DNA of 34,057 nt. Source: Methanocorpusculum sp. Lineage in GTDB: Archaea > Halobacteriota > Methanomicrobia > Methanomicrobiales > Methanocorpusculaceae. Each line of letters starts with the position of its first letter. Positions within the stretch are counted from its first letter, which is position 1. This document shows, piece after piece, positions 1,299 to 19,540 of this stretch. The notes under the pieces were generated by a model. That model saw nothing but the letters and a program-made list of their open reading frames with translations. It did no database searches and had not been told where the DNA came from. The DNA lies in contig JAUNXT010000008.1 of the NCBI GenBank assembly GCA_030539655.1, positions 1-34,057 of the forward strand, read 5' to 3'. The translations under genes were made by a program, and so were the position numbers.

Positions 1299-2168
1299 AT
1301 GACCCCCTCACACAAAAACCGTCGTTCCTCTTTTGAAAACCGCGAGAATACGCGCCGTATCGAAGAACTTGACAGAAAACTCTCTGACCTTGGAATCCGC
1401 ATCAAAGATGAGGATTCAATGAAGGTGACAGGAGAGGTCTTTGACGAAATAACACTTCTCTCGCTCTACAAACTGGTGCAGAAAAAAGTCATCTCCTCGC
1501 TTGGAGGCTCAGTATCATCCGGAAAAGAGGCAAATGTCTTCCTCGCAGGAAGGGTCGAGTCCGGAAAAGCGGAGACAGAAGAGGGCACCTCTCCTGTGCA
1601 GGTAGCCCGTGATGCGGCGGTTAAAATCTACCGCATCAGGACCGGAAACTTCACCCGTATGAGCGAGTACATCACAGGAGATCCCAGGTTTTCGAGCATC
1701 AGACACTCGCACAAAGACCTCATCTTCGCCTGGACCAAAAAAGAGTTCAGCAACCTCTCGCGTGCGAAAGAGGCGGGACTTTGCGTCCCGACACCCTACG
1801 CTTTTGACAGAAACATCCTTATCATGGAGTTCATGGGAGAATCAGGAATCCCCTACCCCCAGATGAGACAAAAGCTTCCCGCATCGCCTGCAGAGACCTA
1901 CGAGGAAGCCCTTGACATCATCAAAAACCTCTACCGCCATGCAAAACTCGTCCACGGTGACTTATCCGGATACAACATCTTATCAGGCCCTGACGGGTTA
2001 ATCCTCATCGACATGGCACAGGCGGTAACCCCGGATCATCCGGGGGCATACCGTTTTCTCTTCCGCGACATCGCAAACATCACACATTTCTTCGAAAAAC
2101 AGTGTGAGGTTCGCGACCCTCACGAGATTTTCCGCGAGGTAGTCGGAAAGGAGTTTTTCGAAATCTGA
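1299..2168 (+). CDS. rio1: RIO1-type serine/threonine protein kinase (Rio1)
   Basis: An archaeal Rio1 atypical kinase/ATPase of 289 residues. The family acts in late maturation of the small ribosomal subunit. Visible motifs are the RIO-type P-loop SSGKEANVF (73-81), the ATP-contacting lysine in AAVKIYR (Lys109), the hinge MEFM (176-179), the catalytic loop HGDLSGYN (219-226, Asp221 and Asn226) and the metal-binding aspartate in LIDMAQ (Asp238). RIO kinases replace the usual DFG and lack the eukaryotic activation loop, as here. The next gene encodes the KH-domain protein corresponding to eukaryotic Dim2/Pno1, which also works in 40S maturation, so the two form a functional pair. A GGGCA-GGAAA-TGCCC hairpin just after the stop (about 2189-2204) may end or process the transcript. 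Confidence 0.95.
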   Translation: MTPSHKNRRSSFENRENTRRIEELDRKLSDLGIRIKDEDSMKVTGEVFDEITLLSLYKLVQKKVISSLGGSVSSGKEANVFLAGRVESGKAETEEGTSPVQVARDAAVKIYRIRTGNFTRMSEYITGDPRFSSIRHSHKDLIFAWTKKEFSNLSRAKEAGLCVPTPYAFDRNILIMEFMGESGIPYPQMRQKLPASPAETYEEALDIIKNLYRHAKLVHGDLSGYNILSGPDGLILIDMAQAVTPDHPGAYRFLFRDIANITHFFEKQCEVRDPHEIFREVVGKEFFEI

Positions 2169-2265
2169 GCGCAGATATGCGTAATCCAGGGCAGGAAATG
2201 CCCGGTTCTGTGATGACGCATACAAACACATACATAAGCACACAATTACAAAACACACATCAGCC

Positions 2266-2275
2266 GCATATAACC
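2266..2275 (+). promoter_or_regulatory. TATA element of the KH-protein gene
   Basis: GCATATAACC is centred about 31 bases before the ATG at 2302, so transcription would start within a few bases of the start codon. There is no convincing Shine-Dalgarno sequence, which agrees with a very short leader. Confidence 0.45.
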
Positions 2276-2301
2276 GCACATAAAATACACAAGGTATCAT
2301 C

Positions 2302-2844
2302 ATGACACAGGAAATAAAAATCCCGAATGACAGAATCGGCGCATTAGTCGGAAAAGGAGGGGAAACAAAGCGGAATCTCGAAAAATTCCTCAATGTAACC
2401 CTCGAAGTTGACAGCCAGACAGGCCTTGTCACGTTAACAAATGAGGAAAACTCCCTTGCAGAGATTGAGTCGATGGAGGTCATCAAAGCAATCGGGCGCG
2501 GATTCTCTCCGGAACGGGCGAAAAAGCTCATGGAAGACGACGAAATGATATTAGACATCATCGACGTCACTGACGTTGCAGATACACCCGGAAAGCTCGC
2601 GCGCATCAGAGGCCGCATCATCGGAAAAGAAGGAAAGGCGCGGGAACAGATAGAAAACATGACAGGTACAAGAATCTCTGTTTACGGCAAAACGGTCGCA
2701 ATTATCGGCCTTCCTGACCAGGCAGCCGATGCACATACCGCCATATCCATGCTCATAAACGGTTCCGAGCACAATACGGTCTTTAATTTCCTCGACCGGA
2801 AACGGAAAGAGGCAAAAATGGATATTATGACTTATTACTACTGA
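2302..2844 (+). CDS. KH-domain RNA-binding protein, archaeal Dim2/Krr1 (Pno1) homologue
   Basis: A 180-residue protein with two KH domains. The first has the GKGG loop (17-20) after IPNDRIGALV, and the second has GRIIGKEGKAREQI with the loop GKEG (108-111). This tandem arrangement is the conserved archaeal counterpart of eukaryotic Pno1/Dim2, which binds near the 3' end of small-subunit rRNA and helps Rio1 and Nob1-dependent maturation. Its position directly after rio1 is a common archaeal arrangement. Both GxxG loops are intact, so both domains should bind RNA or the rRNA-processing partner. Stop to next start (hel308) is 86 bp, with its own possible TATA element (ACATATATG, about 2861). Confidence 0.92.
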   Translation: MTQEIKIPNDRIGALVGKGGETKRNLEKFLNVTLEVDSQTGLVTLTNEENSLAEIESMEVIKAIGRGFSPERAKKLMEDDEMILDIIDVTDVADTPGKLARIRGRIIGKEGKAREQIENMTGTRISVYGKTVAIIGLPDQAADAHTAISMLINGSEHNTVFNFLDRKRKEAKMDIMTYYY

Positions 2845-2930
2845 AATTCTCTCTCAAAAGACATATATGAAGGATATGGATCTTCCAGAGTTCCACTCGA
2901 AATGAAGGGGTTAATGCAAATCAGGCTCGT

Positions 2931-5231
2931 ATGATGAAAATAGACTCTCTACCGATTCCAAACCGCCTGCGTACCGCGTATCTGAAGGCAGGGATAACCG
3001 GACTCTATCCTCCGCAGGAGGAATGCGTAAATGCGGGTTTATTCGAGCGGAAAAACATATTAGCGGCAATTCCTACCGCTTCCGGAAAGACGCTCGTTGC
3101 CGAGTGCGCCATGCAGAAGGAGATTGCCGCAGGAGGCAAATGCCTCTACATCGTCCCCTTAAAAGCACTTGCCTCGGAAAAGTATGAGGACTTCTCCGGA
3201 AAAGGAGTGTCTGTGGGTCTCGCAACAGGAGACCCGGACCAGAAAGATGAATATCTCGGGCGGTACGACATTGTGGTTGCCACCTCGGAAAAGACCGATT
3301 CCCTGTTGCGAAACCGGGCTGAGTGGATAAAACGGGTCTCTTTGTTAGTCGTCGATGAAATTCACCTGATAGGTGATGAGTCACGCGGGGCGACACTTGA
3401 GATGGTGATTGCAAAGCTCAGATACCAGAACCCAAAAATGCAGATAATCGGCCTCTCTGCCACGATGGGAAACCCTGAAGATCTTGCCAAATGGCTTGAT
3501 GCAGCGCTGATTACGAGCGAATGGCGGCCGGTGGACCTCAGAGAGGGGGTGTTTTACAACGGAGAAATCCGGTTTCACGAAGGAAAACGCAAGGTGCCTC
3601 CCGTAAAAAAGGACGATGACATCAATCTTCTCTTAGATACCGTGGAGGAAGGCGGGCAATGTCTGGTTTTTGTCTCCTCCAGACGCTCCGCAGAGGCGTA
3701 TGCAAAACGTGCGGCATCCGCACTGAAGCGGACATCTCCCGCGCTTGAGTCATACGCGGTGCAGATCGAAAAAGCGGATGCCACAGCATCCGGAAAGGTG
3801 CTCGCGGATTCTGTCAGAAAAGGTGCCGCATTCCACCATGCGGGACTTCCACGGGCAGCACGTGCCGCGGTTGAGGAGGGGTTCAGGAAAGGGGACATCC
3901 TTGTTATTTCTTCCACCCCGACACTTGCGGCAGGATTAAACCTTCCGGCGCGGCGTGTCATCATTCGTGACCACCAGCGCTATGAGGCACACCTCGGGAT
4001 GAATCCGATTCCTGTGATGGAGTACCGGCAGATGGCAGGACGTGCGGGGAGGCCGCACCTCGACCCGTACGGGGAGGCGGTACTTATCGCAAAAGACGAG
4101 GGCCGCGTGGATGAACTCTTCGGGGAGTTCATCGACGCTCCCGCGGAAAAAATTAAATCGCAGTGCCAGCGCGAGACCGAGCTTCGCGCACACTTGCTCG
4201 CGCTGATAGCAACCGGATTTGCAGAGACACGGTCCGACATCTCCGCATTTATGGAGCGGTCGTTTTATGCGAGCCAGAAGGCGGTGCACCGCAGACTCGA
4301 TAAAAATATTGAAAGTGCCTTATCCTATCTGGAGGATTCGGGAATGATAGACTCTGTGGGAGATGCGGTATCATCCACGTACTTCGGCTCGCTTTCCTCG
4401 AAGCTCTACCTGGCTCCTGAATCCGCACTCATGATAAAATCTGTATTGTCAGAGCATGCAAATGATACTTTTTCCGCGTTTGCGGTGCTGCATCTTCTCT
4501 GCATGACGCCTGACATGTTCCGCTTCTATCTGAAGGCATCAGACGAGCGGCTGGTCGATGATATTTTAGCGGCCCGCGGGGAAGAACTCTGGACTGAGGA
4601 GCTTTCCGAGGAGTTCTTCGGAGCTCTTAAAAGCGCCGCGGTACTTGAAGAGTGGATTTCTGAGACGCCTGAGGAGATGATATCCGAGCGGTACAGCATC
4701 GGAAGCGGTGATGTTCATGCCGCAGTCGAGAATCTGAAATGGCTTTTGCATGCGGCATCCCGCATCGCACATGAGTTTGCTCCGGCACTTGAAGAGGATG
4801 TTAAGCGGCTTGAAATTCGTGTGGAGAACGGTATCAGAGAAGAGTTAATCCCGCTGATCTCCTTAAAAGGCATCGGACGTGTGCGTGCGAGACGGCTCTT
4901 TGAGCGCGGCATCACAGACCCTGCATCTCTTCTAAAGGCAGGCAGGGCCTCGATCGTCCCCATCCTTGGAACAGTTGTCACAGAGAAGGTCTTTGCCGAG
5001 GCAAAGCGGAAAGTCACGGGTTCATCCCGGGTCCCGGATGATGCGTCTGATTTCGAAGAGGATGCATGGGATGAAAGGGGTGAAGAGGATGTAGAGAGGG
5101 TGCCGCAGGAGGAGAAAACACGGGCTTCGGTGCGGGAGCGGAAAAAAGATAAAGGACCACAGACAGATAAAGAAGAGACAGATAAAACGGATAAGACAGA
5201 TAAAAAACAGCCGACACTGTTTGATTTTTAA
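2931..5231 (+). CDS. hel308: Superfamily 2 DNA helicase Hel308 (Hjm) with C-terminal PCNA-interacting tail
   Basis: An ATP-dependent 3'-5' DNA helicase that acts at stalled replication forks. The Q-motif region YPPQE is at 26-30, Walker A AIPTASGKT at 46-54, DEIH (motif II) at 142-145, SAT at 176-178 and motif VI QMAGRAGR at 367-374. A helix-hairpin-helix near 640-660 contains LKGIGRVRARRLF. Archaeal Hel308 proteins usually run about 690-720 residues. This one is 766 because of a charged, low-complexity tail of about 65 residues from roughly 700. The tail contains TDK-type repeats and ends exactly in KQPTLFDF, which looks like a PCNA-interacting (PIP) motif. The second ATG (2934) is an equally possible start. 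cgi121 follows after 14 bases with a good Shine-Dalgarno sequence, an association seen in other archaea. Confidence 0.95.
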   Translation: MMKIDSLPIPNRLRTAYLKAGITGLYPPQEECVNAGLFERKNILAAIPTASGKTLVAECAMQKEIAAGGKCLYIVPLKALASEKYEDFSGKGVSVGLATGDPDQKDEYLGRYDIVVATSEKTDSLLRNRAEWIKRVSLLVVDEIHLIGDESRGATLEMVIAKLRYQNPKMQIIGLSATMGNPEDLAKWLDAALITSEWRPVDLREGVFYNGEIRFHEGKRKVPPVKKDDDINLLLDTVEEGGQCLVFVSSRRSAEAYAKRAASALKRTSPALESYAVQIEKADATASGKVLADSVRKGAAFHHAGLPRAARAAVEEGFRKGDILVISSTPTLAAGLNLPARRVIIRDHQRYEAHLGMNPIPVMEYRQMAGRAGRPHLDPYGEAVLIAKDEGRVDELFGEFIDAPAEKIKSQCQRETELRAHLLALIATGFAETRSDISAFMERSFYASQKAVHRRLDKNIESALSYLEDSGMIDSVGDAVSSTYFGSLSSKLYLAPESALMIKSVLSEHANDTFSAFAVLHLLCMTPDMFRFYLKASDERLVDDILAARGEELWTEELSEEFFGALKSAAVLEEWISETPEEMISERYSIGSGDVHAAVENLKWLLHAASRIAHEFAPALEEDVKRLEIRVENGIREELIPLISLKGIGRVRARRLFERGITDPASLLKAGRASIVPILGTVVTEKVFAEAKRKVTGSSRVPDDASDFEEDAWDERGEEDVERVPQEEKTRASVRERKKDKGPQTDKEETDKTDKTDKKQPTLFDF

Positions 5232-5245
5232 CGGAGGATAACACA

Positions 5246-5734
5246 ATGCGGATATTCAGCGGAAAGGTTGAGGTAAAAAATGTCTCTGACACACTTTCGA
5301 AAATAAATGATGCGGCAGATGCCTGCGGCTCGGTGATTGTGGTAATTGATGCGGAAAAAACGGCAGGTGCTTCGCACATCGAGTCTGCGGTGCTGCATGC
5401 AGAGCGCTCGTTTGCGGCAGGAGAAAATATTGCAAGGACCCTTGCGATGGAGGTGCTCGTCTATGTGTCGGGACAGCGTCAGTGCTCGCTTGCCGCAAAG
5501 TTCGGGCTGCATGAGGGAAAAAATGCAGTATATGCGGTAATCCTTGAGGGAGACGAGGAGCGTGCGGAGGCGATGCTAAAAGAGATTATATCCGCATGTG
5601 TTGTGCCGCCTGCGGATACCGGACGCCTGATGCGCGAGTTTGACATCTCCGAAGAGGAGCTTTTGGTGACGGGGGAAGAGCGTATCGGAGAGCTTGTTGC
5701 CGAGCGTACGGCAATGGTTGATGCGTGGAAGTAA
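5246..5734 (+). CDS. cgi121: KEOPS complex subunit Cgi121
   Basis: A 162-residue homologue of Cgi121/TPRKB, the KEOPS subunit that binds the 3' CCA end of tRNA and, with Kae1, Bud32 and Pcc1, helps make t6A37. The recognisable block is VLVYVSGQRQ (about 70-80), followed by the alternating strand/helix pattern of the family. An AACGGAGG Shine-Dalgarno sequence lies between the hel308 stop and this ATG. The gap to hel308 is only 14 bases, so the two are very probably cotranscribed. The hel308-cgi121 linkage recurs in euryarchaea. No other KEOPS subunit gene is present in the window. Confidence 0.88.
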   Translation: MRIFSGKVEVKNVSDTLSKINDAADACGSVIVVIDAEKTAGASHIESAVLHAERSFAAGENIARTLAMEVLVYVSGQRQCSLAAKFGLHEGKNAVYAVILEGDEERAEAMLKEIISACVVPPADTGRLMREFDISEEELLVTGEERIGELVAERTAMVDAWK

Positions 5735-18242: not shown

Positions 18243-18373
18243 CCGAATGTCCGGTTCTTGCCCAGAGGCTTTTTTCACACATCCCCAATCCCGACACGGA
18301 TACCCCGAATAGGTGGCAGATTCTGTTTAAATGTTGATATAGTATTAGATACATACTATTTTTGAAAGATACT

Positions 18374-19540
18374 ATGGGTGTACATATGCACACAAACGTA
18401 ACAGAAAACAAAAGAAAAACAGCTATGCGTGTCTTATCTGCCGCTGTTTTTGTTCTGCTTGTCTCAATCTGTGCCTTCGCAGGTGCAGGAGCAGGTGCGG
18501 AAAACGGTGTCGACGGCGGCATCACATGGAACATCGCCGGAGACGGAACGCTGACGATTTCTCCTGCGGAGACTCCGGAAGAGGGGCATGTGAGCGGTGA
18601 GATGAAGGATTATGAGAATCCCGAAGAAACCCCGTGGTATGCATCAGCTGAGAGCCTGAAAAAGCTGGTCATCAGCAACGGAGTGACAAAGATTGGCAGC
18701 TATGCATTTGTCGGGTGTGAATCCCTTACCGGAGATCTTGTCATCCCGGGCAGTGTTACAGCAATCGGAGACTGGGCGTTTGCAAACTGCACCGGGTTTT
18801 CCGGTTCACTTGTCATCGGTGACAGAGTTGATACCATCGGGGAGTTTGCATTTATAAACTGCTGCGGCTTTACCGGGTCTCTTGTCATTCCGGACAGTGT
18901 AACGACAATCGGGGAATTCGCATTTAACGGATGCTGCGGCTTTACCGGATCTCCTTCCCTGGGTAAGAATGTGGCAGTAATCGGTGACTTTGCATTCGTT
19001 GACTGCAGCGGATTTGCCGGAGACCTCGTCTTCCCCGGAAGCGTAAGAACAATCGGCAACTTTGCGTTTGAAAATTGCAGTGGTATTACCGGTTCTGTTG
19101 TTATTCCGGCATCTGTGACAATAATTGGTGATTTTGCATTTAATAACTGTACCGGCATCTCTGTCATCTATATCGCAGGAGACCCCGCGCTTCTCACCGA
19201 CAAATATCCGGCCGAAGTTCCGCTCGCAGCGGTAAACGGCGGTATTGTCAAGATGTTCCCGGCAAAACCGGCTCTTGCCGCACCGGAAAAAGCAGGTTAC
19301 GCCTTTGCCGGATGGTATACAAACCCTGACTTCTCAGGAGAGTCTGCCGCGGCATATGAAGCAGGGAAAATCTACTATGCAAAATGGGAAACAGAGCTTC
19401 CTGCACCGACACAGACAGCCGCAGCAGACCCGACTGCAGAACCCGCACAGACACAGACTGGAGCCTCCCCCGCACCTGTCGCAGGACTTCTTGCAGGACT
19501 CGGGTGTGCTGCGTTTCTCTTCAGCCTCAGACGGAAGTAA
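18374..19540 (+). CDS. BspA-type leucine-rich-repeat surface protein with C-terminal anchor
   Basis: A secreted, cell-surface-anchored protein of about 388 residues. A signal peptide (RVLSAAVFVLLVSICAFAG) ends near an Ala-Gly stretch. The BspA-type cap ITWNIAGDGTLTIS comes next. Seven leucine-rich repeats of 24 residues follow, with the pattern LVIP-x-SVT-x-IG-x-FAF-x-NC-x-GFTG. One Listeria-Bacteroides (InlB B-type) repeat with GYAFAGWYTNP and YYAKW precedes a Thr/Pro/Ala/Gln linker. The C-terminus is SPAPV, a hydrophobic helix and RRK, which resembles archaeal PGF-CTERM-like sorting signals. Start choice is uncertain: ATG 18374, or ATG 18386 preceded by GGGTG. Adhesion or interaction with other cells is plausible but unproven. 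Confidence 0.85.
   Translation: MGVHMHTNVTENKRKTAMRVLSAAVFVLLVSICAFAGAGAGAENGVDGGITWNIAGDGTLTISPAETPEEGHVSGEMKDYENPEETPWYASAESLKKLVISNGVTKIGSYAFVGCESLTGDLVIPGSVTAIGDWAFANCTGFSGSLVIGDRVDTIGEFAFINCCGFTGSLVIPDSVTTIGEFAFNGCCGFTGSPSLGKNVAVIGDFAFVDCSGFAGDLVFPGSVRTIGNFAFENCSGITGSVVIPASVTIIGDFAFNNCTGISVIYIAGDPALLTDKYPAEVPLAAVNGGIVKMFPAKPALAAPEKAGYAFAGWYTNPDFSGESAAAYEAGKIYYAKWETELPAPTQTAAADPTAEPAQTQTGASPAPVAGLLAGLGCAAFLFSLRRK
18656..19159 (+). repeat. Seven tandem 72-bp leucine-rich-repeat units
   Basis: The coding repeat has a 24-codon period (the first unit 26 codons, the last 22). The third and fourth units are most similar, sharing IGEFAF and CCGFTGS, which suggests recent duplication. The alternate cysteine positions (GC, NC, NCC, GCC, DC) vary between units. 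Confidence 0.8.

Follow-up and report, generated by a model that had tools for sequence, protein, structure and literature searches.

The hel308 gene of a Methanocorpusculum metagenome-assembled genome (1.2 Mb, 77% complete), from a gut methanogen, encodes a DNA repair helicase that is very probably a Hel308/Hjm protein of the ordinary euryarchaeal kind, carrying a PCNA-interacting protein (PIP) box at the C-terminal end of a flexible linker. The gene lies on contig JAUNXT010000008.1 (contig C21 in our numbering), whose 34,057 nucleotides are referred to here as the window. We read the tail of this helicase as a tether to the PCNA clamp, with a probability of about 0.88, because of the Pyrococcus orthologue, the single canonical PCNA of the genome, and the RFC large subunit and FEN1, which also end in PIP boxes; the step from motif to binding would follow from the orthologue and from conservation. 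The hook is real but largely ordinary, being known from Pyrococcus and normal in most of the related archaea surveyed. The features concerned are:

2931..5231, + strand: hel308, Hjm/ski2-like 3'-5' DNA helicase, starting with ATG, 766 amino acids
5019..5228, + strand: charged C-terminal extension comprising residues 697-766, predicted to be disordered (pLDDT, the predicted local distance difference test score, < 50; unalignable between species)
5163..5171, + strand: isolated TDK unit, residues 745-747 (from the sequence)
5178..5204, + strand: three tandem TDK units, a 9-bp repeat, residues 750-758 (from the sequence and Tandem Repeats Finder)
5208..5228, + strand: PIP box QPTLFDF, residues 760-766, ending at the stop codon (conserved in the genus and the phylum)

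The product of the hel308 open reading frame (ORF), with the C-terminal sequence ...RKKDKGPQTDKEETDKTDKTDKKQPTLFDF, is covered over residues 2-766 by the NCBIfam helicase model NF002654 (993.8 bits, cut-off 887) and contains the Pfam domains DEAD, Helicase_C, HTH_61 and Helicase_dom4_arc. The archaeal domain 4 (PF21280, E = 1e-32) is that of Hel308 members, and motif IVa, defined as the F/YHHAGL hallmark of Hel308/Hjm (PMC10484726), reads FHHAGL at residues 301-306 and is invariant across 23 aligned proteins. The HHH_5 match was weak (21.5 bits, under the cut-off of 27); the segment GIGRVRARRL is present and the helix-hairpin-helix was counted as such. The nearest solved chains are PfuHjm (2zj2) and AfuHel308 (2p6r). 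A frame error or other artefact is ruled out by the same frame and motif in 24 genomes of the genus and by the downstream gene, cgi121, which follows with its own ribosome binding site.

In an AlphaFold2 model built with 23 sequences, the helicase core closes with a helix at residues 681-696, and pLDDT stays below 50 for residues 698-766, so that the PIP box is predicted to lie on an exposed, flexible terminus. The initial annotation, made from the window's sequence alone, had counted about 65 residues beyond the core, close to the roughly 70 of this model, and its charge order was also recovered, with an acidic segment (DFEEDAWDERGEEDVE) followed by a basic one (RERKKDK), the TDK units and KKQPTLFDF, the tail ending exactly in KQPTLFDF at the C-terminus. 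There are four TDK units in the tail overall, the three tandem ones being encoded by ACAGATAAA ACGGATAAG ACAGATAAA. The 9-bp array that had been described as near-perfect does exist, but this wording is slightly generous, since Tandem Repeats Finder reports it as weak (5176-5203, 3.1 copies, score 42). The tail has 70 residues here, compared with about 33-43 in most of the genus and about 98 in G023, the sister species. The G023 linker reads TDK-DE-TDK-ADK-TNK-ANK-MDK-ADK, in which six degenerate three-residue units can be recognised, and no array was found there by Tandem Repeats Finder. Only the tether length is therefore particular to the species of the window, with a small TDK repeat whose copy number differs between the two species, compared at one genome each.

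The terminal motif expected in close relatives was found in all of them, Q-x-x-L-[F/L]-D-F being kept in 24/24 complete genomes of the genus, either at the very C-terminus or before GE, GG, GGYT or RE. The fifth position changes from F to L in one species. Among these genomes the codons for Q, L, D and the last F show synonymous differences only (CAG/CAA; CTG/CTT/CTC/CTA/TTG; TTT/TTC), whereas the linker between core and PIP box drifts so freely that it is unalignable among species; the comparison of sequences therefore indicates that the terminal motif is under selection. In Candidatus Methanorbis basalitermitum (G016; loci L025/L046), the linker includes about 200 bp of a dispersed, hairpin-rich repeat inserted in frame (G016:C26:92555-92758 in L025; DNA folding z of -4.97), with 46 matches in that genome including this copy, and the PIP box is intact after it. 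Together, the conserved end, the unalignable linker and this insertion with the PIP box kept form the pattern of a permissive tether that carries a functional end.

The archaeal core QxxLxxF (Q, aliphatic, aromatic; PMC7776575) is provided by Q760, L763 and F766. Endings of the form Q-x-x-hydrophobic-x-x-F-stop occur at 35 places in the whole 1.2 Mb genome, the reading frame having been checked for 30; among these 30, the ones that end ORFs of at least 200 amino acids belong, besides Hel308 and the RFC large subunit, to one other ORF and to four membrane-like proteins that resemble one another. This terminal-motif scan, together with conservation, rules out a chance motif. These membrane-like proteins, on contigs C3, C17 and C70 of G000, end in QKKLPKF (three times) or QRKIPLF and are PIP-like by letters only.

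The initial annotation also held that most Hel308 proteins lack such a tail, which is wrong in this phylum. Hel308 C-termini were collected from 160 genomes, out of 197 sampled in which families f10, f12 and f18 were wholly uncovered, and 124/160 genomes with a complete C-terminus carry Q-x-x-h-x-x-aromatic near it. Because of this partial coverage, and because 25/160 come from the window's genus or were chosen for being close to it, this figure describes a sample rather than a census. Where a tail of at least 20 residues is present, the motif occurs in 124/126 proteins; it occurs in none of the 34 proteins that have no tail. Every complete Hel308 of the window's own family (f1) and of f2, f3, f4 and f5 has it, as do 10/11 in f6 and 29/29 in f8. 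All sampled proteins of f13, f17, f20, f22, f25 and f26, which are taken to be haloarchaea, also carry it, mostly on acidic tails ending in QxxLGDF forms, while f9, f15, f16, f19, f21, f24 and f28 have neither tail nor motif (34/34). The motif is missing from two tailed proteins, those of G061 and G167, the latter ending in QQLLNLT. The G167 protein (L098) is a long-branch Hel308 from the same order; its long tail ends in GQQLLNLT, and its PIP box was apparently lost. On a quick tree of Hel308 domains 4-5 (141 rows, tail columns left out), which has many weak branches, the presence and absence of the PIP box require 4 changes.

The closest precedent is the Hjm/Hel308 of Pyrococcus furiosus, which needs its C-terminal PIP box to bind PCNA and whose unwinding is enhanced by PCNA (PMC2636818); physical binding through the motif is known only for this orthologue. 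PfuHjm (Hel308a, PDB 2ZJ2/2ZJ8) belongs to the same helicase family (E = 3.5e-154), and its PIP box also lies at the very C-terminus, after domain 5, where it is invisible in the crystals. However, its PDB sequence, ending in ...EKPRKSTLDYFLKS, has a tail of about 20 residues with the motif KSTLDYF (K for Q; ending KSTLDYFLKS), compared with 70 residues and QPTLFDF here. The Hel308 of Archaeoglobus fulgidus (PDB 2P6R) shares the helicase core but ends in ...AERVVEGISVKSLNPES, followed by a His tag, without a PIP box. A Hel308-PCNA precedent had been placed in the Sulfolobales; none was found there in the literature searched, which gives Pyrococcus instead, and in the S. solfataricus Hel308 chain (715 amino acids) the match extends to residue 710, too far for a tail to follow. 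Thus, of the tether as initially proposed, the disordered tail ending in a conserved PIP box stands, and the Sulfolobales precedent and the rarity of the tail do not.

The genome also contains the candidate partner. A single PCNA_C match was found in each of 25/25 genomes of the genus, including that of the window, whose PCNA (L192:1486-2232, - strand) is canonical in that its connector loop and C-terminal segment align with solved archaeal clamps. The RFC large subunit of the same genome ends in NQATLDFF, its PIP box QATLDFF closing a charged tail, and the PIP box of FEN1 is QATLDSWF. These are other enzymes with C-terminal PIP boxes like that of Hel308, although both have a second aromatic residue and Hel308 has none. 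The close match to an RFC large-subunit motif KQATLFDF, noted initially, does not hold for this organism's own subunit, and KQATLFDF was not found as an RFC motif in the literature searched.

By analogy, we infer both PCNA binding in this organism and its cellular effect. Q760, L763 and F766, with F764, would dock in the pocket between the inter-domain connector loop and the C-terminus of PCNA, and the disordered linker of about 60 residues would let the helicase core reach forked DNA while clamped. Clamps at forks that have stalled or are restarting could in this way recruit Hel308, which would share PCNA with RFC, FEN1 and polymerases.

Some points weigh against this tether. The motif ends at its first aromatic residue, F766, so that the second aromatic of the strict QxxhxxaA is absent, and the residue after the final F in most relatives is G, or none. 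Nevertheless, the second aromatic is optional, as the PIP box of A. fulgidus RNase H, solved with PCNA, is without one (PMC3504372). Archaeal Hel308 also binds RPA according to reviews, which cite a physical interaction in Methanothermobacter. One C-terminal motif might dock either PCNA or RPA, as a switchable tether; at stalled forks the helicase would then pass from the clamp to single-stranded DNA, its reach being set by a linker length tuned through small repeats, and tail-less lineages of the Archaeoglobus type would load Hel308 otherwise. We consider this unlikely. It is also improbable that the motif is mainly an RPA docking site, loading Hel308 on single-stranded DNA, with a secondary likeness to PIP boxes, as the conserved residues are exactly the PIP consensus, like those of RFC and FEN1 in the same genome, and the Pyrococcus orthologue needs its C-terminal motif for PCNA binding. 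The Methanothermobacter RPA interaction was reportedly mapped to a conserved C-terminal motif (Woodman, 2011). Selection of the C-terminus for another role, for instance as a degradation signal, with a convergent PIP likeness, is very improbable: hydrophobic C-terminal endings are generally places where such signals can sit, but many species have extra residues after the motif (GE, GGTENE, EK), showing that the free C-terminal carboxylate is not a fixed feature. Finally, an unselected disordered extension with a fortuitous motif would suit a linker that is unconserved and can accommodate repeats and the insertion of a dispersed element, but its chance is negligible, as the motif's presence throughout the genus and in nearly all tailed proteins of the phylum, with synonymous-only key codons, refutes it unless the motif is selected for another reason.

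The PCNA tether leaves the known kind of system unchanged. If the survey holds, Hel308 of methanogens and haloarchaea would commonly be tethered to the clamp, and the tether would be lost or absent in Archaeoglobus-like lineages, whose crystal structure is a standard model. Papers on Hel308 of Haloferax and Methanothermobacter treat RPA and Hjc, not PCNA; a 2023 Hel308 paper does not mention PCNA or PIP, and where a 2020 Haloferax review discusses Hel308 it does not ascribe a PIP box to the protein. A cheap genetic test would be possible in Haloferax volcanii, provided that its Hel308 (HVO_0014) ends like the sampled haloarchaea-like proteins.

The neighbourhood of hel308 comprises:

1299-2168: RIO kinase, upstream of hel308
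2302-2844: KH protein, upstream of hel308
5233..5237, + strand: GGAGG, the likely ribosome binding site of cgi121, 8 bases before its ATG at 5246
5246..5734, + strand: cgi121, KEOPS complex subunit, downstream neighbour (NF011465, 137.5 bits, cut-off 40)

Within this stretch (1299-5734), the KH-hel308-cgi121 segment is conserved throughout the order: in 60 loci, some genomes being represented twice, a KH homologue lies upstream of hel308 in 59 and a Cgi121 homologue downstream in 56. This order-wide arrangement sets a fork helicase next to genes for tRNA modification and translation. In many relatives (L009-L025, compared with positions 5229-5246 of the window), the last F is followed by the codons GGA GAG or GGA GGA, which double as the likely cgi121 ribosome binding site (GGAG/GGAGGA); because of this double use, the GE/GG ending of their Hel308 may have been shaped by that site. 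A Methanocorpusculum-type hel308 and cgi121 also occur on a horse-faeces contig assigned to a Lachnospiraceae bin (L051, JAKSRN010000263.1), which was likely mis-binned. Elsewhere in the window, a 72-bp tandem repeat (18726-18953; 3.2 copies, 70% matches) lies within the ORF at 18362-19540.
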